From Methanoregula sp. (lineage in GTDB: Archaea > Halobacteriota > Methanomicrobia > Methanomicrobiales > Methanospirillaceae), in NCBI GenBank assembly GCA_030694985.1, contig JAUYTV010000018.1:1-40260 (forward strand): 40,260 nucleotides of DNA. Direction: 5' to 3'. Below, one piece after another: positions 27,206 through 40,251 of the stretch. Made by a program: the position numbers and the translations under genes. The notes under the pieces are model-generated. The model had not been told where the DNA came from. It was given only the letters and a program-made list of their open reading frames with translations, and made no database searches. Each line of letters begins with the position of its first letter. Within the stretch, counting starts at the first letter, position 1.

Positions 27206-27328
27206 TTACAGCGTGTCGAACGCGAGCTTTGATTTCCCGGAACCATAGATCCCATTGATTACCAAGAATTTGTCGTAGGAAATCGTGTGGCGGAAATTTT
27301 TGAGCTCATGCGGTCCAGTTGAATGACA
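27206..27328 (-). pseudogene. UvrA N-terminal remnant 1
   Basis: A minus-strand frame ending at TAA (27206-27208) reads PHELKNFRHTIS, then YGSGKSKLAFDTL. This aligns with the start of UvrA (REHNLKNIDVTIP ... GLSGSGKSSLAFDT), including the Walker A lysine and serine. The match starts and stops abruptly after roughly 36 residues, with no start codon or downstream UvrA sequence. It is a decayed fragment. A second fragment covering the same part of UvrA lies near 33.1 kb in the same orientation. The remaining parts of 27158-27450 hold nothing else recognisable. Confidence 0.7.
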
Positions 27329-27450: not shown

Positions 27451-28797
27451 TTAAGTAATTTTTTCCTCAACCCTTTCAAAGAAATCTAGCCTCATTTGTT
27501 TGGCTTCTTTCTCGAATCTTTGTGGATCGAATTTTTCGAATGCTGGTTTAAGTTTTTCAGTCAAATCGTATTCTGGATCAATAACATGCCGTGAATTGGC
27601 TGCTACAGCGAGAACATCTTCTAAAAATTTCTGGTTGCCTTTGAATGGAACTAATTGTACCCTACCATCGTAGCGAGCTTCTTTATCTATTAGTCCAATT
27701 ATTTCGAGTGAATTTATTATTTTTTGTGCGGGAGTCACTCCAAATTCTCCAGACAAATCATCTTCGCTAAGACTGGACTCTTTTGTTAATCGATAAAGAA
27801 CCTCATTGGTTTCCGGAACACTTCTCATTAATGTCAAAATTGACTGCGCATTGTCCAATTCTTGATAATTCATGGCTATTAGAGTACCACTAGTAGGTCG
27901 ACTCAGGGCGCTTTCCATTTCAAGGGTATAAGTCCTGTGTGCGATACCCACATTGTCAATAGTTCTTATCATCTGATTTACAATCCTTGGAGGTAAACTT
28001 GTTGCTCGAACAATTTCTGGATGGGAAATAAAACCCCCACTGTCCCCGATAAATTCCATTAATTGTCGAATACCGATTCGCAATTCACTACTTGTATCCA
28101 AGACTGATTCCCAAGTTTCTTTTGATTGGGCTCCGGTAATGAAAGATTTTGAGAAGGTGTATTCACTTCCTTTGATATCCTGAGGACGAACAGCGTCAAT
28201 TTCTTGTAAAGCTACGTAATCCCTAAGAAATTGATACCGCTTTGTCGACGCCGCTTCAAGCTCTGAGGTTAACTGAGGAAAATTGAGAACACCTCTCACA
28301 ATCTCAAATTGATTAATTTGCTGCTCAAAAAGTGGCCCGATTTCGAGGAAATTTTTTTTGACGAATAACTTACTTCCTATCGGATACGGAATTACATTTA
28401 TTACACGAGAACTTGAAGGTTCAAATTCAATGAAACCATCTTTTAATCTTGGGATTACCGATGTTTTTAGATTGTGATTAAAACTTGGTCTCGCGGCAGT
28501 TGTCGGAGTGATTCTCCAAACATCATTTGCAATTTCAATAAGATCTTTCTTATGATGCGCAACATCCAAAAATGCCAATCCTCTTGCTAGAAGAACTGCA
28601 CCACTGAACTGACCTGGGGTAAGTCTTTTTGGTTGGATTTGATCATCTAAATAATATTCCCGTACACTTCGAATTATTTGATCTTCTACTCGAATTACAT
28701 CATTTAATTCTGGAGTGTCTAATACGTCGAGAACACTATCGGGTATGGATTGGACAAAGGGATGATCTAAATATGGCCTGAATTTATCAGAGGCCAA
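27451..28797 (-). CDS. Large winged-helix-type protein of unknown function
   Basis: 448 residues from a TTG at 28797; not recognised. The TTG directly follows the TGA of the upstream gene in the same frame, and GGTGA lies 5 bases before it, so an independent, coupled start is plausible. Helical throughout. Two segments look like winged helix-turn-helix units: about 250-295 (SHPEIVRATSLPPRIVNQMI) and about 328-385 (SLSEDDLSGEFGVTPAQKII). No catalytic motif or membrane segment is visible. The AT-rich composition is unlike the core genes. It could be a regulator or a DNA-binding component of a defence module. Confidence 0.75.
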   Translation of the reverse strand: MASDKFRPYLDHPFVQSIPDSVLDVLDTPELNDVIRVEDQIIRSVREYYLDDQIQPKRLTPGQFSGAVLLARGLAFLDVAHHKKDLIEIANDVWRITPTTAARPSFNHNLKTSVIPRLKDGFIEFEPSSSRVINVIPYPIGSKLFVKKNFLEIGPLFEQQINQFEIVRGVLNFPQLTSELEAASTKRYQFLRDYVALQEIDAVRPQDIKGSEYTFSKSFITGAQSKETWESVLDTSSELRIGIRQLMEFIGDSGGFISHPEIVRATSLPPRIVNQMIRTIDNVGIAHRTYTLEMESALSRPTSGTLIAMNYQELDNAQSILTLMRSVPETNEVLYRLTKESSLSEDDLSGEFGVTPAQKIINSLEIIGLIDKEARYDGRVQLVPFKGNQKFLEDVLAVAANSRHVIDPEYDLTEKLKPAFEKFDPQRFEKEAKQMRLDFFERVEEKIT

Positions 28798-29748
28798 TCA
28801 CTTCACCTTTTTCACCATTGATTTTTTACATTCATCCCCAAAAGCTCGTTTTACCAGAACGTGATCTGTTTTTGAATCAAGAACGATATTTTCAGAATTT
28901 TTTAATGAAATTCTCCAGTTGTGTTGCTTAAAAATTCGGTCCAAATCTATACTATAATCATAATTATTAAGTAAACATTTCATCAATTCATTTTCATCTG
29001 AATTGTTATTCGACAATGCTCTCTCTTTTAGTCCTAAGAACATTGTCACGACTAGATCTAGAAATGGTTTGTATAAATGGGAATTCTCTTCTGAGGTCAT
29101 TCCCATCATTTTGAACCGAGTGGCGGAAGCCAGTCCTCGAATTATTATCAAGGTTTCAACAAGTTCCCGATCGAGTTTTTCAATTTTATACAATGGCTCA
29201 AAAAGACTTACGAAATCGTTTCCTGCTGGATCTCTAATCTTTTTAATCTGGATAATTTTATGAGTATCGCAGATTACAAGAGCACGCCGAATACTATCCA
29301 ATGATGTCGTTGATCCAATTCGTTTATAAATTTCAGTGTCAGTTAATCCCTCTTTGAAATTAACAAGAACTTCCCAGCAACCGTTTTCAAATAAAAGAGA
29401 GAATGGAGAGAAAGGATCGGTAATTAAACGATCATAACTTTCTGCAAGAACAGATGCCCTCATGTGCGATGTATTCGCTTGTTGTAAATCCGATTCGAGT
29501 GTAGGTACTCCACCAACCCATTTTATCGAGGTTTTACCTTTTATTTTATTTTTTATTATCAACCCTTCTTTCTGTAGATTTGAGATTTTTGAAGTAACTG
29601 TACTTTTCTTCAGTCCAAGCTTTTCTATAATCTCGTCATACGTTGCTTGTTTTTGTTCTTGAAGAAATTGCGCAATCTTGACTTCGGTTGCGGTTATCCT
29701 CATTTCTTCAATTTGGGCAGTGGTTGCCAAATTTTTTGAGACGTCCAT
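28798..29748 (-). CDS. MarR-like winged-helix protein
   Basis: 316 residues. GGAGGGA eight bases before the ATG is the best ribosome binding site in the island. Residues about 18-75 form a clear winged helix-turn-helix (TATEVKIAQFLQEQ, YDEIIEKLGLKKSTVTSKI, basic wing KNKIKGKTSIKW). A second HTH-like unit lies at about 125-175 (LTDTEIYKRIGSTTSLDSIR). The C-terminal half is helical with no known motif. The gene ends KKSMVKKVK-TGA and the next gene continues in the same frame, so the two could once have been one 765-residue protein. AT-rich and divergent from the DUF3644 gene. Confidence 0.75.
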   Translation of the reverse strand: MDVSKNLATTAQIEEMRITATEVKIAQFLQEQKQATYDEIIEKLGLKKSTVTSKISNLQKEGLIIKNKIKGKTSIKWVGGVPTLESDLQQANTSHMRASVLAESYDRLITDPFSPFSLLFENGCWEVLVNFKEGLTDTEIYKRIGSTTSLDSIRRALVICDTHKIIQIKKIRDPAGNDFVSLFEPLYKIEKLDRELVETLIIIRGLASATRFKMMGMTSEENSHLYKPFLDLVVTMFLGLKERALSNNNSDENELMKCLLNNYDYSIDLDRIFKQHNWRISLKNSENIVLDSKTDHVLVKRAFGDECKKSMVKKVK

Positions 29749-29973
29749 AATTTCCCTCCTTATTTCTGAAAATGTTCCTCGACTGCTTCTGGATTTGAGA
29801 ATATAATCCTTATATGTAATTATCAGTTTGCTCTTAACAATGATATATCGAAAAGGTATTAGCGGATTGTTTAAGAGAGAGACAGGTTAAGAATCATAAG
29901 ACGAATATTCAATAAACAGAATAACTGAATTGAATGCTTTAACTATTCCCCATCAAGAAAAATTGGAGATTTG
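29749..29973. promoter_or_regulatory. Divergent promoter region of the wHTH pair and DUF3644 gene
   Basis: This 225-base AT-rich region drives both directions. Minus-strand TATA-like sequence lies at about 29802-29818 and gives a leader with GGAGGGA. The plus-strand gene has GGAG (29965-29968) five bases before ATG 29974. The block ATAATCCTTATATGTAATTAT-like (29803-29823) is a rough inverted repeat that overlaps the leftward TATA box and could be an operator for the winged-helix protein. The last point is inference. Confidence 0.4.
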
Positions 29974-31044
29974 ATGAAACGCGAAGTAAAAACATTGTTG
30001 GACAAATCTGTCGCTTCTTTACTACTATCGATTGAGCTCTTTAATCGCCCCCACGATTATGCAAGGACTTGTTCTGTTTTGATTTTGTTAGATCACTCTT
30101 TTGAAATGTTGCTCAAGGCATCAATACTTCAGAAAAAAGGAAGAATTTTTGATAAAATTTCCAATTATACAATCGGCTTTGAAAAATGTTTAAGGATCGC
30201 TGTTGGTGATGGAAATGTCCGGTTTCTTACTAAAGAACAGGTGTTAACCTTACAAACCATAAACAGTATCAGAGACGCCCAACAGCACTACATCATCGAT
30301 GTTTCTGAAAATCAGTTGTACTTGTACGTTCAATCTGGCTTCACCTTGTATCGAGATATTTTGAGAAATGTCTTTGACAAGGATTTGTATGAATTTCTAC
30401 CAACACGAGTATTGCCTATTTCGACAACCCCCCCAATGTCATTAGAAGTTTTATTCGATCAAGAAATTGAAGAAATTAAAAGATTATTAAGCGCGAAGAG
30501 CAGGAAAAAAAGTATAGCAATCTCCAAGCTCAAACCTCTTGAAATATTAGAACGGTCGCTTCAAGGGAACGATCAACCTGTAACCGATCATGATCTAAAA
30601 AAGAAGATTGAGAGAGTGCAACAAGAGAAAGATTGGCGAACAGTTTTTCCAAATGTTGCAGCTATTGAAGTTGTTCCAGATTCATCATCACCATCTATAG
30701 CATTACGTTTCACAAAAAAAGAAGGGATTCCGATTCATGTTGTTCCAGAGGGAACGCCCGGTTCTTTTGTTGTCGCAATAAAGAAAGTCAACGAACTCGG
30801 TTTTTTTAACATGACGTATAGTCAATTGGCTGAAGCAATCCATCAGAACACTGCGAAAACTAATGCATTGATATGGTATCTAAAAATAAAAAATGATGAT
30901 GAATGTTGTAAAGCGATTCAAATGGGCAAGACGACTTTTTACAAATATTCAGTTAAATCGATTTCAAAAATTAAGGATGCATTACAAAAAACAACAATTG
31001 ATGAAATTTGGAAGACCTATAGAGAAAGTGTTTTAAAAAGGTAG
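29974..31044 (+). CDS. DUF3644 family HEPN-like protein
   Basis: 356 residues from ATG 29974, chosen over TTG 29971 because GGAG sits five bases upstream. The N-terminal half matches my memory of DUF3644: LLDKSVASLLLSIELFNRP (8-26) and ILLDHSFEMLLKASIL (37-52), followed by R100-D-A-Q-Q-H105-Y, an R-x4-H motif of the HEPN RNase superfamily. The C-terminal half carries a beta-rich segment, then an HTH-like unit (about 280-340, YSQLAEAIHQNTAKTNALIW and MGKTTFYKYSV). HEPN proteins of this sort often act as RNA-cleaving toxins in antiviral or toxin-antitoxin systems. It is divergent from the winged-helix pair and AT-rich; repeat copy R1 follows. Confidence 0.75.
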   Translation: MKREVKTLLDKSVASLLLSIELFNRPHDYARTCSVLILLDHSFEMLLKASILQKKGRIFDKISNYTIGFEKCLRIAVGDGNVRFLTKEQVLTLQTINSIRDAQQHYIIDVSENQLYLYVQSGFTLYRDILRNVFDKDLYEFLPTRVLPISTTPPMSLEVLFDQEIEEIKRLLSAKSRKKSIAISKLKPLEILERSLQGNDQPVTDHDLKKKIERVQQEKDWRTVFPNVAAIEVVPDSSSPSIALRFTKKEGIPIHVVPEGTPGSFVVAIKKVNELGFFNMTYSQLAEAIHQNTAKTNALIWYLKIKNDDECCKAIQMGKTTFYKYSVKSISKIKDALQKTTIDEIWKTYRESVLKR

Positions 31045-31108: not shown

Positions 31109-31170
31109 TGCCCTCAATTCCGGCAATTGACAACGGTCTCACAACATCCGGTCCCGGGTCCGCCGCATGC
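31109..31170 (+). repeat. Island repeat R1 (short copy)
   Basis: Opens TGCCCTCAATTCCGGCAATT, then GACAACGG, ACAACATCCGG, the core CCGGTCCCGGGTCCG and the tail GCATGC. It starts 65 bases after the DUF3644 stop codon. It is GC-rich inside an AT-rich neighbourhood, as are the other copies. Confidence 0.7.
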
Positions 31171-31838: not shown

Positions 31839-31930
31839 GGCGCTCCTCAGTGCCCACATTACTTAGTAATTGACGACGGCCTCACAACATCCGGCCAAGG
31901 GTCCGTCAACCCGAGAGAGGTAGGGTCGAC
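31839..31930 (+). repeat. Island repeat R2
   Basis: Opens GGCGCTCCTCAGTGCCC like R6, then ATTGACGACGGCCT, ACAACATCCGG, a degenerate core CCAAGGGTCCGTCAA, and the tail GAGAGAGGTAGGGTCGAC shared with R3. It starts 64 bases after the preceding stop codon. Confidence 0.7.
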
Positions 31931-32001: not shown

Positions 32002-32760
32002 ATGTCAGGAAGACTTTTTGATATTATCCCAGATTCAGATGCATTGCTAGCTCTCGAACCGGAAGAGTTAGCAGGTATTGTACTTGAATTTCTAAATTCA
32101 CTCGGTCATGGACAGGCTGACCAATTATTAAATACACATAATTTTAGCCAACCAGACACGGTTGATGGTTATCCTCAAGAAAAGAAAAAGGAAATCCTGA
32201 AAGCACTGATGGAGGCATGGAGTTGGTTAGATAGCGAGGGTTTGATTGCACCTAGACCGGGTTGTATGGATAGTCCTAGTTTTTTCATATCCCGAAGAGG
32301 AAAAAAAGTCTTGAATCAAGAGGAGTTTCGAAAAATTTATCATGGTAATTTACTACCAAAACACTTATTGCATTCAGTTATTGCCCAAAAAGTCAGGTCT
32401 CCTTTTATTCGAGGAGCTTACGATTCTGCTGTTTTTGAAGCCTTCAGAGAACTTGAGATTTTTATTCGAGAAGCTGGTGGATTTTCATCAACAGATTTTG
32501 GTGAAAAATTGATACGAAAGGCATTTGACGAAAATTCGGGGTCGTTAACGGATCTAAATCAACCAAAACCGGAACGTTTAGCACTTCAGAATTTATTTGT
32601 AGCAGCTTATGGATCCTATCGAAATCCACAAAGTCATAGAAATGTATCAATTGATCAGGCTGAAGCAGTAGAAATGATAATGCTTGCGAGTCATTTATAC
32701 AAAATCGTAGAAACCCGACATGGTGCACGAATTGCGAATAATTTAATAAATAACCGTTAA
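32002..32760 (+). CDS. TIGR02391 (Ymh-type) HEPN-like protein
   Basis: 252 residues. The C-terminal domain (about 118-245) matches the TIGR02391/Ymh group: GAYDSAVFEAFRELEIFIRE (138-157), LIRKAF, then Y-R207-N-P-Q-S-H212-R, the R-x4-H motif expected of HEPN RNases, and a helix EMIMLASHLYKIVE. The N-terminal ~115 residues look like a winged-helix-like adaptor. Family members occur in phage-defence and restriction neighbourhoods. A TATA-like AAATTATAA about 26 bases before the ATG suggests a leaderless mRNA. AT-rich; lies between repeats R2 and R3, upstream of the restriction-modification genes. Confidence 0.82.
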   Translation: MSGRLFDIIPDSDALLALEPEELAGIVLEFLNSLGHGQADQLLNTHNFSQPDTVDGYPQEKKKEILKALMEAWSWLDSEGLIAPRPGCMDSPSFFISRRGKKVLNQEEFRKIYHGNLLPKHLLHSVIAQKVRSPFIRGAYDSAVFEAFRELEIFIREAGGFSSTDFGEKLIRKAFDENSGSLTDLNQPKPERLALQNLFVAAYGSYRNPQSHRNVSIDQAEAVEMIMLASHLYKIVETRHGARIANNLINNR

Positions 32761-32883
32761 TCGGGTATTAATACAAAATTTGGACTATAATATCAATAAT
32801 TTATCAATTTTTTTGCAGGAGATAGGGAAATATGGAAGAGAATTTCATTCACTTCAAATGAACATTTCCGTACAATGTTTCTA

Positions 32884-32964
32884 AGTGCTCTCGGTTCCGG
32901 ATTGTGACGACGGCTACCCAACATCCGGTTCCGGGTCCGTCAATCAAAGAGAGGCAGGGTCAAC
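32884..32964 (+). repeat. Island repeat R3, abutting a UvrA remnant
   Basis: Opens AGTGCTCTCGGTTCCGG, then GTGACGACGGCT, CAACATCCGG, the core CCGGTTCCGGGTCCGTCAA and the tail GAGAGGCAGGGTCAAC. It starts 124 bases after the Ymh gene. Its right end lies within three bases of the point where UvrA similarity begins. Confidence 0.75.
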
Positions 32965-32967
32965 ACT

Positions 32968-33180
32968 GACATCCGGCTTATGCATGACGCCAAGGAAATG
33001 GCGGGCATCGGTGGAGAGTCAGGTGTACCGCCGCTGCCCTTTGACGTACAGAGTGACGAACGCGAGCGTCGATTTCCCGGAGCCCGAGACCACGGTGATC
33101 ACCGCGAGCTGGTCATGAGGGATCGTAACGCTGATATTTTTGAGGTTGTGCTGGCGGGCACCTTTGATGGTGTCTTTCAT
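32968..33180 (-). pseudogene. UvrA N-terminal remnant 2
   Basis: On the minus strand from ATG 33180 the frame reads [20 protein letters not shown], then [12 protein letters not shown] and KGQRRY; after one in-frame TGA (33019-33021) it goes on LSTDARHFLGVMHKPDV. This is the first ~75 residues of UvrA with the Walker A motif, then similarity stops at 32968. With an internal stop and no remainder of the gene, it is a remnant. It is longer and better preserved than the 27.2 kb fragment and lies in the same orientation. Confidence 0.8.
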
Positions 33181-33426
33181 TCTGGGGGGATGGGACCAGT
33201 GGAAATTGTTTCGGAGTTTCTGATTTTCCAACATTCGTGGCAAATACCTGTATAACTGTGATATCGAATGATACAACTTGTTTGGAGAAAAACGAAATGC
33301 ATTAATCAAGTTAGAACTGAATCGGTTATACTGAATGACAATTAATCAACAGCCCGATCCATCGTATAAAAAATATCGCTCTGTCGCGCCACGAACGACT
33401 GCGATTAATACCAATGAGGTTCGGTG

Positions 33427-35544
33427 ATGTCGAGACTCACTGACCTTATTCATCAAGCGAAAAGTCTTAACCCTCAGTTGGGTCTGGATCTGGATACAGA
33501 ATTCCGTGCATTGTTAAAACGACGCTCGTTCGGTCTGGTCTTTGAGCGTCACCGTCCGGAGGCGGTAGAACTTCCACAACGCCCCGTGATGAAGGGCGAT
33601 ACGGTCAGGATTCTACCTCCGCGTGGTATTATGGAGAAAGGTGATAAGAGACTCTGGCGGGTGTTAAAGATCGAGCGGAACAACGATTCCAGAATGGCAC
33701 ACCTAATTGAGGTCGGCAAAGATTTACCCGAACGGAGTTCTGTGACTCTGGAAGATGTCGTTGTCGTCGCAGCGTTTCGTGATCCCCTCTACCCCGGTCT
33801 CGTGGAGACTGGACGAATCGAGCGGGGAGGGGTCAAGCCATTTCATACCGTCATCAACGGTGAAAACTACCATGTCTTGGAAATGCTGACATACACACAC
33901 CGGCACAAGGTAGATGCCATCTACATCGACCCTCCCTACAATTCGGGTGCGAAGGACTGGAAATACAATAATGACTATGTCGAGAGTGACGACCTGTACC
34001 GGCACAGCAAATGGCTGGCGATGATGGAACGGCGCCTGACCTTAGCAAAAGAGCTCCTGAATCCCGAGAACAGCGTTCTCATCGTCACGATCGATGAGAA
34101 AGAGTACCTACGTCTGGGGCTGCTCCTAGAGCAGATACTTCCCGAGGCGCGTATCCAGATGATAAGTACAGTCATCAACCCTAAAGGGGTTCCACGAGAC
34201 GGATTTGCGCGTGTGGACGAATACATCTTCTTTGTACAATTTGGATCGTCGGAAATTGTCGGCGATATCAAAGAAGGAAGCGGTGGCACTGAAGTTCGTT
34301 GGCGCAGTTTGACTAGAACAGGCGCGAATGGCACCCGAAGCAAATCTCCAGGGGCGTTCTACCCGATCTATTTCGACAAAGCGGGAAAGATAATCGAAGT
34401 TGGCGATGCACTACCAATTGGAAAAGACGCAAGTTCTCTCGCTCCTCGCAAAGGATTGATTGCTGTATGGCCCACTCCTCGTCCGGATGGCGAAGATGGG
34501 CGGTGGTCAGTCGTTTCCGAACGGCTGAGAGAAATGATCGAAATTGGTGCCGTTAAAGTTGGGCGAGTGAAACTCGATAAAGAACAATTTCCGATCTTCT
34601 ATCTCACATCTGAACAGCTCGCAGCAATCGAATCGGGTGAGTTGGAAGTAAGAGGAAAGACGCCTGAAGGGGTGATGCAGGTTTTCTTCCGTGAAGAGCG
34701 CGGGCGGGTTTCTGCTCCTCGAACGGTATGGGAAAAGGTAAGCCATAGCGCGAGCGAACAAGGCTCTGGCTTGTTGAAAACACTACTGCCAGGGCGTAAA
34801 TTCCCTTATCCGAAGTCGCTTTATGCGGTAGAAGACGTACTTCGACTTACCGTTCGAGGGAAATCCGAGGCTGTTATTCTCGATTTCTTCTCCGGCTCTG
34901 GCACCACCGCCCATGCCGTCATGCGCCTCAACCACGAGGATAGTGGGCGACGGCAGTGCATCTCTGTCACCAACAACGAAGTAGGTGCAGATGAACAGGC
35001 CGAACTGCGCAGGCAGGGCCTACGCCCGGGCGATTCCGACTGGGAGCAGTGGGGCATCTGCGATTACATCACAAAACCCAGAATTCAAGCCGCCATTACA
35101 GGAAAGACACCAGACGGGCAGCCAATCAGCGGCGACTACAGGTTCACGGACGAGTTCCCGGTATCAGATGGGTTCGAAGAGAATGCTGTGTTCTTCACGT
35201 TGACCTATGAGGGGGCGCTCTCCGTCTCCCATCACCGGGCGTTCGAAAGAGTGGCTCCATTGCTTTGGCTCCGGGCAGGCAGCATAGGCCGGATCATCAA
35301 TGCCATTCCGGAACGTGGCTGGGACGTGGCCGAATCGTACGGGGTACTGGTTGCACTGGATGAGACCACTGCATTCGTCAAAGCAATGTCAGGAATAGAA
35401 ACCGTGAAAATTGCCTATATCGTCACGGATGACGACCGGCGCTTCCAGATGATCTGCTCCCATCTGCCGGATCACGTAGCACCCGTGCGTCTTTATGAAT
35501 CATACCTGGCCAATTTTGAGATCAACAGCGGGAGGTGCACCTGA
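33427..35544 (+). CDS. Type III-like N6-adenine DNA methyltransferase (Mod)
   Basis: 705 residues. ATG 33427 is preferred over GTG 33424 because GAGGT lies seven bases upstream. It is a beta-class amino-methyltransferase: motif IV I-D168-P-P-Y171-N-S-G comes before motif I DFFSGSGTTAH (about 486-496), which binds SAM. The target-recognition region lies between them (about 260-450). The long N-terminal region (1-140, with GLVFERHRPE and VRILPPRG) is typical of large Mod-like enzymes paired with a DEAD/DEAH helicase. It should methylate adenine in a specific sequence and protect DNA from the partner nuclease. The stop overlaps the next start by one base. GC-richer than the flanking modules. Confidence 0.9.
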   Translation: MSRLTDLIHQAKSLNPQLGLDLDTEFRALLKRRSFGLVFERHRPEAVELPQRPVMKGDTVRILPPRGIMEKGDKRLWRVLKIERNNDSRMAHLIEVGKDLPERSSVTLEDVVVVAAFRDPLYPGLVETGRIERGGVKPFHTVINGENYHVLEMLTYTHRHKVDAIYIDPPYNSGAKDWKYNNDYVESDDLYRHSKWLAMMERRLTLAKELLNPENSVLIVTIDEKEYLRLGLLLEQILPEARIQMISTVINPKGVPRDGFARVDEYIFFVQFGSSEIVGDIKEGSGGTEVRWRSLTRTGANGTRSKSPGAFYPIYFDKAGKIIEVGDALPIGKDASSLAPRKGLIAVWPTPRPDGEDGRWSVVSERLREMIEIGAVKVGRVKLDKEQFPIFYLTSEQLAAIESGELEVRGKTPEGVMQVFFREERGRVSAPRTVWEKVSHSASEQGSGLLKTLLPGRKFPYPKSLYAVEDVLRLTVRGKSEAVILDFFSGSGTTAHAVMRLNHEDSGRRQCISVTNNEVGADEQAELRRQGLRPGDSDWEQWGICDYITKPRIQAAITGKTPDGQPISGDYRFTDEFPVSDGFEENAVFFTLTYEGALSVSHHRAFERVAPLLWLRAGSIGRIINAIPERGWDVAESYGVLVALDETTAFVKAMSGIETVKIAYIVTDDDRRFQMICSHLPDHVAPVRLYESYLANFEINSGRCT

Positions 35545-38141
35545 TGCGATATACCCTTAAGGATTATCAGACCGATGCTGTCGGCCGTGTGCTAACTAAC
35601 CTGCGCAAGGCGCGCCGGTATTACCATGATGATGGAGACCACTCACAGTTCTCTCTGTCAGCCACGACGGGCGCCGGTAAGACGGTGATGGCTGCTGCTG
35701 TCATAGAAGCCCTCTTTTTCGGGTCCGATGAGTTCGACTTTGAACCAGACACAGGCGCTGTGGTAGTATGGTTTTCCGATGACCCCTCGCTCAATGAACA
35801 ATCGCGGGCACGTCTTCGGGCGGCCTCTGATAAGATTGATCGAATGATTTCGGTAAAGACCACCTTTAACCACCTGAAATTTAATCCACAGACGGTCTAT
35901 TTCCTGAACACGCAGAAATTTTCAAAGCACTCGCTCCTCGTACGTGGAGCCATGACGGAGATAGATAACGATCAGGAGGTGCTGGTCGCGTCGCGTCCCG
36001 ATGAGCAGCAGAACTCAATTTGGGATACAATCACGAACACAATCGAAGACAAATCCTTCACGCTCTACTTTATTCTTGATGAGGCACATCGGGGCATGGT
36101 GACTCGCAATAGCGAACGCCCGACCATCGTGAAAAGACTCATCAACGGTCATGGTGCTGTCCCGCCCCTACCAATCGTGTGGGGTATCAGCGCCACCGTG
36201 GAGCGCTTCGAGAATGCCATGAGTGGCACGGTGGGCCGAACCGCACTCCCATCGGTCGACGTGGACTCGGTCCGGGTTCAAGCCTCCGGGCTCCTCAAGG
36301 ACGATATCATACTTGGATTTCCAAAGGAGTCGGGCCGATTCGATACGGTGCTCCTGAAACGCGCTGTTCGGAAGGTGGTTGAGTCCACCAATGCATGGGC
36401 TGAATATACACGGGATCAGCGGGACACGGAAACCGTGGTGCCGCTTCTTGTGGTCCAGGTTCCAGACAAAGCAAGCGATCAGATGCTCGCCGATGCAGTG
36501 GCAACGATCCAAAACGAATGGCCATCCAATTGTCTCAGTCTTGAGTTTGACGCATTTGCCAATGTATTCGGAGAGCACAAAAACATCGTTGTCGGGCAGA
36601 CATCTATCCCCTATATCGAACCAGAACGAGTACAGGATGCACGTCACATCCGCGTCCTTTTTGCCAAGAACGCGATCTCAACTGGCTGGGATTGTCCCCG
36701 GGCTGAGGTAATGATGTCATTCCGGCCGGCAACGGATACGACCCATATCACTCAGCTCCTAGGCAGGATGGTGCGTACCCCGTTGGCACGTCGTATCCCA
36801 GGCAATGAGATTCTTAATAGTGTATATTGCCTCCTGCCGTTCTTTGACAATGCAACGGCTACTGCCGTTGCGAATAGGCTGATGAAGGGTAGTACGGATC
36901 GCGATGATGAAGAAAACGCGACCGGCACTGGTGGCGGCGAAGGCCGGCGTATCCTTTTCGAACCCATCGAAATGACGCCTAATCCGGCCGTAACAGAATC
37001 CGTATGGGAGCGATATCTCGCATTACCCTCTGAGACAATTCCCAAGAAGAATGCCAAGCCGATTAAACGATTGACCGCTTTGGCACAGGCTCTCTCTACC
37101 GATAACCTGGTGGATCATGCTGGGGATAAAGCTCATAATCATCTTCATAGAGTTCTCGATGGACTGGCCGTTCGATATAGATCCGAGGTTGAGAGCGCCA
37201 TTAAAGACATCCAGACCGTAGAGGGAAAAAATCTGCGAGTCAACATGGTTGATCGCGGCATATCAGATGACGAATTCACCGAGATCGCTGACAACCGGGT
37301 AATAGAAGATGCGTACCGGGCCGCTCGTCGCGCATTCTCCGACGACGTGGCACGCACATATGTCGAATATCTAGCAGGTCCTGGAGGGGAAGATGAGCTA
37401 AGGGAGGCGCACGTGACGGTGGCAGCCTTGGCTCTCATCCCGGAAATCGTAACGGATATCGAAAGCGAAGCCGACAGGTTGGCCACGAAGTGGTTCACTC
37501 AAACACGGGTGGAGCGAACCCGGCTCAGTGACCGCAAGCAGGCGGAATATGATGATATTCAGGCCATGTCATCCAAGCCCCAACGCGTCTCTCTTGGCAG
37601 GCCAAATGTACGCCAGGAGGATACAAGGATAATCGACGATCAGGGTCACGAGATGTCTCTACCGACCCGTACTAAACACCTTCTTGCTGATAGTACCGGA
37701 GCGTTCCCCATTAAGCTGAATGAGTGGGAGACCACTGTCCTCGATACGGAGATGGCCCGACCAGGATTCTGTGCCTGGTACCGCAATCCGAGCCGGGTCT
37801 GTAAGGAATCGCTCGCAGTTTCCTACGAACATGGACCGGATGATTACCGTCCATTTTGCCCGGACTTCATCTTCTTTGTTCAGAAGGACGATGGAAGTGT
37901 TGTGGCCGATATCGTTGACCCGCACGGCTTCTATCTGGCCGATGCGTTACCGAAACTGCGAGGTCTTGCGAGATTTGCGGAGACTTATGGTGCCGATTTC
38001 CGCCGCATCGAAGCGTTCGCCAAAGTAGGAGAAAAACTGAAGGTACTCGATCTAACTAAGCCAACCGTGATCAACGCAGTGAAGGAGTGTACTAATTTGG
38101 AGGATCTCTACGTGAGCGAGCTGTCGCAGGACTATTGCTAA
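35544..38141 (+). CDS. Type III-like restriction helicase-nuclease (Res)
   Basis: 865 residues. It begins at the ATG in TGATG with GGAGGTG (35531-35537) upstream; the open frame starts slightly earlier at a GTG. Superfamily 2 helicase motifs: Walker A T41-T-G-A-G-K-T47, D179-E-A-H182, S216-A-T, and Q404-L-L-G-R-M-V-R411. The C-terminal region has a PD-(D/E)xK-like segment P773-D774-F-I-F-F, then D789-I-V-D-P-H-G where the catalytic Lys position appears as Val. It should translocate or scan DNA and cut unmethylated sites with Mod. If the substitution is real, nuclease chemistry may differ or use another Lys. Confidence 0.88.
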   Translation: MRYTLKDYQTDAVGRVLTNLRKARRYYHDDGDHSQFSLSATTGAGKTVMAAAVIEALFFGSDEFDFEPDTGAVVVWFSDDPSLNEQSRARLRAASDKIDRMISVKTTFNHLKFNPQTVYFLNTQKFSKHSLLVRGAMTEIDNDQEVLVASRPDEQQNSIWDTITNTIEDKSFTLYFILDEAHRGMVTRNSERPTIVKRLINGHGAVPPLPIVWGISATVERFENAMSGTVGRTALPSVDVDSVRVQASGLLKDDIILGFPKESGRFDTVLLKRAVRKVVESTNAWAEYTRDQRDTETVVPLLVVQVPDKASDQMLADAVATIQNEWPSNCLSLEFDAFANVFGEHKNIVVGQTSIPYIEPERVQDARHIRVLFAKNAISTGWDCPRAEVMMSFRPATDTTHITQLLGRMVRTPLARRIPGNEILNSVYCLLPFFDNATATAVANRLMKGSTDRDDEENATGTGGGEGRRILFEPIEMTPNPAVTESVWERYLALPSETIPKKNAKPIKRLTALAQALSTDNLVDHAGDKAHNHLHRVLDGLAVRYRSEVESAIKDIQTVEGKNLRVNMVDRGISDDEFTEIADNRVIEDAYRAARRAFSDDVARTYVEYLAGPGGEDELREAHVTVAALALIPEIVTDIESEADRLATKWFTQTRVERTRLSDRKQAEYDDIQAMSSKPQRVSLGRPNVRQEDTRIIDDQGHEMSLPTRTKHLLADSTGAFPIKLNEWETTVLDTEMARPGFCAWYRNPSRVCKESLAVSYEHGPDDYRPFCPDFIFFVQKDDGSVVADIVDPHGFYLADALPKLRGLARFAETYGADFRRIEAFAKVGEKLKVLDLTKPTVINAVKECTNLEDLYVSELSQDYC

Positions 38142-38376
38142 TGATATAGGTGGGTGCTCAGTCTGGATCGGGTTTAGGGCCTGTCTGGTATAGAACTGAC
38201 GGAGGTTTACGCCCATCCAACCGTGACTTATCATCAACAGGCAGCGCGATTGTTCGACTGTGATTTTATCAGAACCCCTTTTTACCCTGCATATCTTCCC
38301 CTCAAGCTTTCGTAAAATCTTGGTCGCTTTCGTTTATAAGCACGCTATCTGGTTCGTGACCTATATGCGTCTCTCA

Positions 38377-38474
38377 TTGCCCTCAGTACCGGAGAAGCAC
38401 GACGGCGTTCGGTACCGATCGGGTTCCGGGTCCGTTCAATCACGGAGAGGACGGCGCCCCGCCCCACCGCATGC
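38377..38474 (+). repeat. Island repeat R4
   Basis: Opens TTGCCCTCAGTACCGG, then GCACGACGGCG, the core GGGTTCCGGGTCCGTTCAA, the tail GGAGAGGACGGCG and CCCCACCGCATGC. It lies 235 bases after the Res stop. The gap 38142-38376 before it and 38475-38627 after it contain no gene I can support. Confidence 0.75.
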
Positions 38475-39248: not shown

Positions 39249-39347
39249 TCTAATCAATGACTAGTTGATCTCTAATAATAAAACGAATGTGGTTTAAAAA
39301 TTTCAGTATTTTATATCTACATCGAATTGATTTGTAACGGCACTTAT

Positions 39348-39532
39348 CAGTGCCCTCAGTACCAGCCCTTGACGACGGCCCCCCGCTCCGGTCCCGGGTC
39401 CGCTCATTCAGTACCAGCCCGGCCCCGCCCCACCGCACGCGGCCGATACGAGAGCGGGTGAGCCAGTCCCAACAAAACCCGGCCGGACCGGTCCGGCGCA
39501 TTCATTCCTGTGATCAGAAAATTTCCCGGGCC
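39348..39532 (+). repeat. Island repeat R5 (long copy)
   Basis: 185 bases. It opens CAGTGCCCTCAGTACC, then TTGACGACGGCC, the core CCGGTCCCGGGTCCGCTCA, a CCCCACCGCACGCGG tail, and a long right arm containing GGCCGGACCGGTCCGG and CAGAAAATTTCCCGGGCC. From CCCCACC to the end it is about 93% identical to R6 (seven differences in about 104 bases by eye). Confidence 0.85.
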
Positions 39533-40060: not shown

Positions 40061-40251
40061 GGCGCTGCTCAGTGCCTTCGGTTCCGGCAATTGACGACGG
40101 GTCCGGTACCGATCCGGTCCCGGGTCCGCTCATCCAGAGAGGACGGCCCCACAGCACGCGGCCGATACAAGAGCGGGCGAGCCAGCCCCAACAAAACCCG
40201 GCCGGACCGGTCCGGCGCATTCATACCTGCGATCAGAAAATTCCCCGGGCC
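40061..40251 (+). repeat. Island repeat R6 (long copy)
   Basis: Opens GGCGCTGCTCAGTGCC, CTTCGGTTCCGGCAATTG, ACGACGGGTCC, the core CCGGTCCCGGGTCCGCTCA, then GAGAGGACGG, CCCCACAGCACGCGG and the same long right arm as R5 ending CCCCGGGCC. It combines the left arm seen in R2 with the right arm of R5, so it is the most complete copy. The window ends nine bases later. Confidence 0.85.

Follow-up and report, generated by a model that had tools for sequence, protein, structure and literature searches.

Two genes for winged-helix proteins form a conserved unit on archaeal mobile elements and adjoin a separate DUF3644 HEPN gene in Methanoregula

The described systems closest to the locus studied here are the DUF3644 proteins, a family of HEPN proteins; insertion sequences that carry passenger genes next to a SWIM and DDE_Tnp_1 transposase; autoregulated toxin-antitoxin operons; and centromere-binding proteins of the AspA type. 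To our knowledge, the defence and addiction systems of methanogens have been little studied. Both DUF3644 and Ymh are HEPN families, and such families have been reported beside restriction-modification systems (PMC3710099). Integrons, with which repeat arrays of this genus may be compared, have been described in archaea (PMC9668308).

Here we analyse a stretch of 40,260 bp from Methanoregula sp. (contig JAUYTV010000018.1, positions 1 to 40,260; hereafter, the window), which belongs to a genome of 2.49 Mb. The preliminary description of this DNA had singled out a block of three genes as a candidate undescribed module, in which two large proteins with winged helix-turn-helix (wHTH) units, denoted A and B below, are transcribed away from a DUF3644 protein (Table 1). 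All three open reading frames are present, A and B are divergent from the DUF3644 gene, and 225 bp separate the divergent starts. The block is AT-rich, as had been noted: the GC content of the three genes is 35-38%, and their GC3 (0.24-0.36) is well below that of the flanking genes (0.56-0.72), which marks the block as foreign to its neighbourhood.

Table 1. Positions of the block and of its surroundings in the window
Feature	Position	Strand	Remark
uvrA-derived fragment	27207-27311	-	left boundary of the block
Gene B, 448 aa, TTG start	27451-28797	-	multi-wHTH protein, family unassigned in databases
Gene A, 316 aa, directly upstream of B	28798-29748	-	wHTH at the N-terminus and another wHTH-like unit; probably represses its own operon
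Region between the divergent genes, 225 bp	29749-29973		sequence
Imperfect palindrome GAAAATGTTC	29768-29777		lies where the relatives have the putative operator, 19 bp upstream of A; weak
DUF3644 HEPN protein (PDC-S19)	ORF 29971-31044; 356 aa from ATG 29974	+	separate single-gene defence candidate
85-bp array repeat copy	31109-31164	+	right boundary of the block
85-bp repeat copies in the window	31109-31164, 31846-31926, 32881-32959, 38373-38454, 39346-39408, 40068-40146		co-oriented
Ymh-type HEPN gene (PF09509, E 1.6e-22)	32002-32760	+	
Second uvrA-derived fragment	33022-33309	-	
Type III restriction-modification pair	33424-38141	+	

A and B constitute an undescribed, conserved two-gene unit that is separate from DUF3644. 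The homologues of B that the searches detected are confined to four loci: in a second genome of the genus of the window (G159, 49%), in a Methanothrix MAG (L004, 48%), in a genome from a different class (G451, locus L033, 40%) and on an IMG/VR virus contig (L041, 48%); the remainder of the several hundred archaeal genomes searched contained none. The first searches, of genome contigs with A alone, of viral sets with two-sequence alignments and of plasmids with A and B by tblastn, gave no matches, and the virus contig was recovered once four-sequence alignments served as the query. In all five known loci, the window included, A lies directly 5' of B on the same strand, and the two genes overlap by 4 to 17 bases in the relatives. 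With dN/dS values of 0.12 (A) and 0.11 (B), both genes are under purifying selection. The earlier assertion that the pair exceeds what a simple repressor needs holds up.

Structure models of A and B, built on four sequences only and accordingly limited (mean pLDDT 64 for A and 53 for B), allow no claim on domains other than the following. The N-terminal wHTH of A (about residues 20-77) is clear both by sequence and in the model, and aligns with MarR/ArsR-type regulators (Z up to 11.9, rmsd 0.9 over 61 residues), and residues 124-192 form a second, wHTH-like unit of middling model quality. In B, residues 310-405 are well modelled and align with SmtB/CadC-type wHTHs (Z 9.0, rmsd 2.5 over 84 residues); judging by the model, residues 65-135 are probably wHTH-like, and the same assignment for residues 237-288 is doubtful. 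Hence, the attribution of several winged-helix units to each protein stands for one clear unit in A and one well-modelled unit in B, and is less certain for the others. Searches with the whole structures of A and B returned no matches, only single wHTH domains being matched, and B produced no above-threshold sequence match in Pfam, NCBIfam, PADLOC or PDB sequences. The possibility that A and B are duplicates of each other was rejected, given a profile comparison probability of 0.9%.

Upstream of A, several of the loci contain a putative operator. The genomes of G159 (2.8 Mb) and of the Methanothrix MAG (G542, 2.3 Mb) each have a single copy of the palindrome TGCAACGTTGCA, in both directly upstream of A; the genomes G000 and G158 have none. 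Because this palindrome is single in each of the two genomes and always precedes A, A probably represses its own operon through a private site, a prediction drawn from sequence. The recognition helices of A from these two loci are almost identical (SKPTVSRRVR in G159 and SKPTISRKVR in L004). In the virus copy, two adjacent GCAACGTTGC sites upstream of A are the sole matches to the loose palindrome GNAACGTTNC on the 19-kb contig. The same loose palindrome is not enriched in G451 (32 occurrences vs 34 for the control), where GAAACGTTTC, located 33 bp upstream of A, is unremarkable alone; the imperfect GAAAATGTTC at the equivalent place in the window is not significant by itself.

The A-B pair is itself a mobile unit, encountered in a transposon, a tRNA-integrating element and a virus. 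In the Methanothrix MAG, a complete 4.7-kb transposon (L004, 4785-9516) encloses the genes of the transposase, A and B; its ends are GGCTTTGCATCTAAAGT(G/C), its sub-terminal repeats TGCAACTAAAG, and it is flanked on both sides by a perfect 9-bp target duplication, TGTTCATAG. The virus contig carries a near-identical or related transposase-A-B unit with a 16/18 match of the ends, at which no target duplication was seen. This unit is the single block of similarity between the two contigs, the surroundings being otherwise unrelated; to judge from its tail-type proteins, among them a tape-measure-like protein of 1282 aa, the contig appears to derive from a tailed virus. In G159, the pair resides in an AT-rich stretch adjoining a tyrosine integrase and a tRNA-Ser gene, and a 15-bp att-like piece of the 3' end of the tRNA is repeated 6.0 kb off, beyond the genes for DprA and a ComF-like protein. 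The corresponding 6.0-kb element integrated at tRNA-Ser (L003, 7331-13367) comprises DprA, the ComF-like protein, A, B and the tyrosine integrase. At L033, A-B is preceded by part of a related transposase. No terminal repeats above chance were detected around the pair in the window, L003 or L033.

Given these carriers, A and B might be accessory proteins of transposition that bind TGCAAC half-sites both at the ends of SWIM-DDE transposons and in their own promoter, the copy in the window having lost its transposase. This reading, which we regard as rather unlikely, draws on the transposase-A-B arrangement, which forms one transposable unit in the Methanothrix MAG and the virus contig, on the transposase fragment at L033, and on the half-site GTTGCA/TGCAAC, shared by the operator and the end repeats TGCAACTAAAG, which leaves room for some role of A-B in transposition. 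However, the same transposase and ends occur without A-B, for which reason the reading was downgraded. The transposase of the L004 type is present in 29 of the 238 genomes of the class of L004, and among the transposase loci examined, in flanks of up to about 1.5 kb, A and B were found solely in the L004 genome itself. In G631, two tandem transposon copies with the same ends contain genes for an RHH_5 protein and a 217-aa protein in the position of A-B, and a similar pair, with a 280-aa protein, occupies this position in a transposon of the same family in G578. Moreover, A-B is intact in G159 and in the window, where the transposase is missing. The histories of the pair and of the transposase also differ: A and B of L004 share 97.0% and 93.5% identity with their counterparts in L041, compared with 83.4% for the transposase and 85.0% for the intergenic region, and the identity steps sharply just before A, from which we infer that the two genes were exchanged together from one transposase lineage to another.

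Other gene pairs were observed in or near these transposons. The RHH_5 gene and its partner, which encodes a protein of 217-280 aa with apparent membrane segments, are divergent from the transposase (L117, 1455-3916, in G631; L126, 185-2701, in G578) and possibly represent another regulator-effector passenger. A DUF488 protein and a second small protein are encoded near the L004 transposon (L004, 1142-2490), and a MazE-like/DUF488 fusion is divergent to the same transposase in G570 (L118, 298-882); these DUF488-containing loci are perhaps a further mobile regulator-effector pair.

The third protein of the block is already catalogued: it is the PADLOC single-gene candidate PDC-S19, of a known HEPN family. 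It matches PF12358 (DUF3644) with an E-value of 1.1e-13 and the PDC-S19 profile PDLC04951 at full length (E 2.5e-136, residues 2-353 of 357). Five homologues that are 28-46% identical to the protein of the window all retain R100 and H105 of the R-x4-H motif, in agreement with the initial assignment; a C-terminal HTH-like part, likewise proposed, is seen as a conserved HTH-like stretch, and the C-terminus also gives a sub-threshold match to PF18740 (EC042_2821-like). The composition of the block had been considered undescribed, which holds for the wHTH pair but not for DUF3644. Full-length relatives of the DUF3644 protein were identified on 13 bacterial plasmid records, in one of which the gene adjoins a restriction-modification pair, and no further DUF3644 protein of the same subfamily was found among 232 genomes of the class.

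That the three genes work together, with A-B regulating or licensing a divergent HEPN toxin, is a reading with some support in the window, where the genes diverge around a common 225-bp region, have similarly low GC, and lie in one block between the uvrA fragment and the array repeat. We now hold it to be improbable, and the three-gene module was rejected, as co-occurrence failed in the homologous loci: DUF3644 adjoins A-B in none of the four other A-B loci (0/4), and A and B had no tblastn match in the plasmid collection that holds the 13 DUF3644 records, so that the three genes do not make up a conserved module. An inverted repeat over the leftward TATA box, reported from the window alone, was also rejected, because the best repeats in the 225 bp score 6-7, within the range of shuffled sequences (mean 5.9, maximum 8). 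With five A-B loci known, it is possible that A-B regulates or uses DUF3644 in the genome of the window alone. Least probable is a role of A and B in plasmid-type partition or replication, on the model of AspA, a centromere-binding wHTH protein of archaea: AspA aligns both with the N-terminal wHTH of A and with a wHTH of B, and the genes are found on mobile elements, but many wHTHs score similarly, a ParA-type gene was noticed next to none of the five loci, and A-B travels on a transposon and integrated elements rather than plasmids.

The surroundings of the block are a defence island of a known kind. To the right of the block follow a gene for a 177-aa protein, the Ymh-type HEPN gene and the type III restriction-modification pair. 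Gene blocks inside the island are separated by an 85-bp repeat. Arrays of this repeat are present in many genomes of the genus (L081-L115), with copies mostly 0.5-3 kb apart that are co-oriented in all 23 of the 23 contigs with two or more copies. The consensus folds into a long imperfect hairpin, with weak folding of individual copies and weak covariation. A comparison of the window with Rfam gave no match. No tyrosine recombinase or integrase was found by motif near the arrays, and the ORFs of the arrays show no strand bias. The arrays look cassette-like and are perhaps akin to integrons. Fragments of the N-terminal part of uvrA, two in all and oriented alike, flank the AT-rich block, and a long uvrA ORF is located on another contig. 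One of the fragments abuts an array repeat, and the same junction exists in two related genomes, G187 and G188.

Taken together, we favour, as reasonably probable, the interpretation of A-B as a self-regulated passenger operon of archaeal mobile elements, with DUF3644 as an independent defence candidate beside it. Under this scheme, the N-terminal wHTH of A would bind the palindrome that immediately precedes the A gene, as the site in the relatives suggests, and A would thereby keep expression of A-B low. B, coupled to A and apparently containing several wHTH units, may act with A as a DNA-binding partner or as the effector. B would benefit the carrier, for example through defence against rival elements or through addiction; this is our best guess and the weakest step, made by analogy with other regulator-plus-effector passengers. 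The DUF3644 gene, a candidate separate single-gene defence system of the HEPN RNase type, would have landed next to A-B in an island that also holds the Ymh HEPN gene and the type III restriction-modification system. More tentatively, and with the odds against it, A-B might be a new kind of autonomous module for defence or addiction, which consists solely of large proteins with several winged helices, has a private operator and is swapped as cargo among transposons, integrative elements and viruses.

The analysis tells a catalogued HEPN candidate apart from an undescribed two-gene unit. Element ends, target duplication and passenger exchange mark A-B as selected cargo of archaeal mobile elements, a virus included, and the pair yields a predicted operator sequence and two unannotated protein families in methanogens. 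Defence genes may be captured in the genus by way of the oriented 85-bp repeat arrays.

Compared with known systems, the DUF3644 protein agrees with PDC-S19 in the full-length match, in the retention of R-x4-H, and in its location in an island with restriction-modification genes, as known for the family (PMC3710099); only the archaeal host and the A-B neighbour were found to set it apart. With AspA-type centromere-binding proteins, A and B share the wHTH fold in single-domain alignments, but they are three to five times longer, and a ParA/ParB-like partner was not noticed. Like autoregulated toxin-antitoxin operons, A-B is a compact operon on mobile elements, in which the first gene encodes a DNA-binding protein with its own predicted operator and the second is coupled to it; unlike them, both proteins are large and of the DNA-binding type, and no toxin fold was recognised. 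The elements that carry A-B resemble passenger-carrying insertion sequences (SWIM and DDE_Tnp_1) in the transposase, the terminal inverted repeats, the 9-bp target duplication, and the additional genes, which occupy a constant position and diverge from the transposase, whereas the A-B passenger differs in consisting of large multi-wHTH proteins outside known families and in riding also on a tRNA-integrating element that lacks this transposase.
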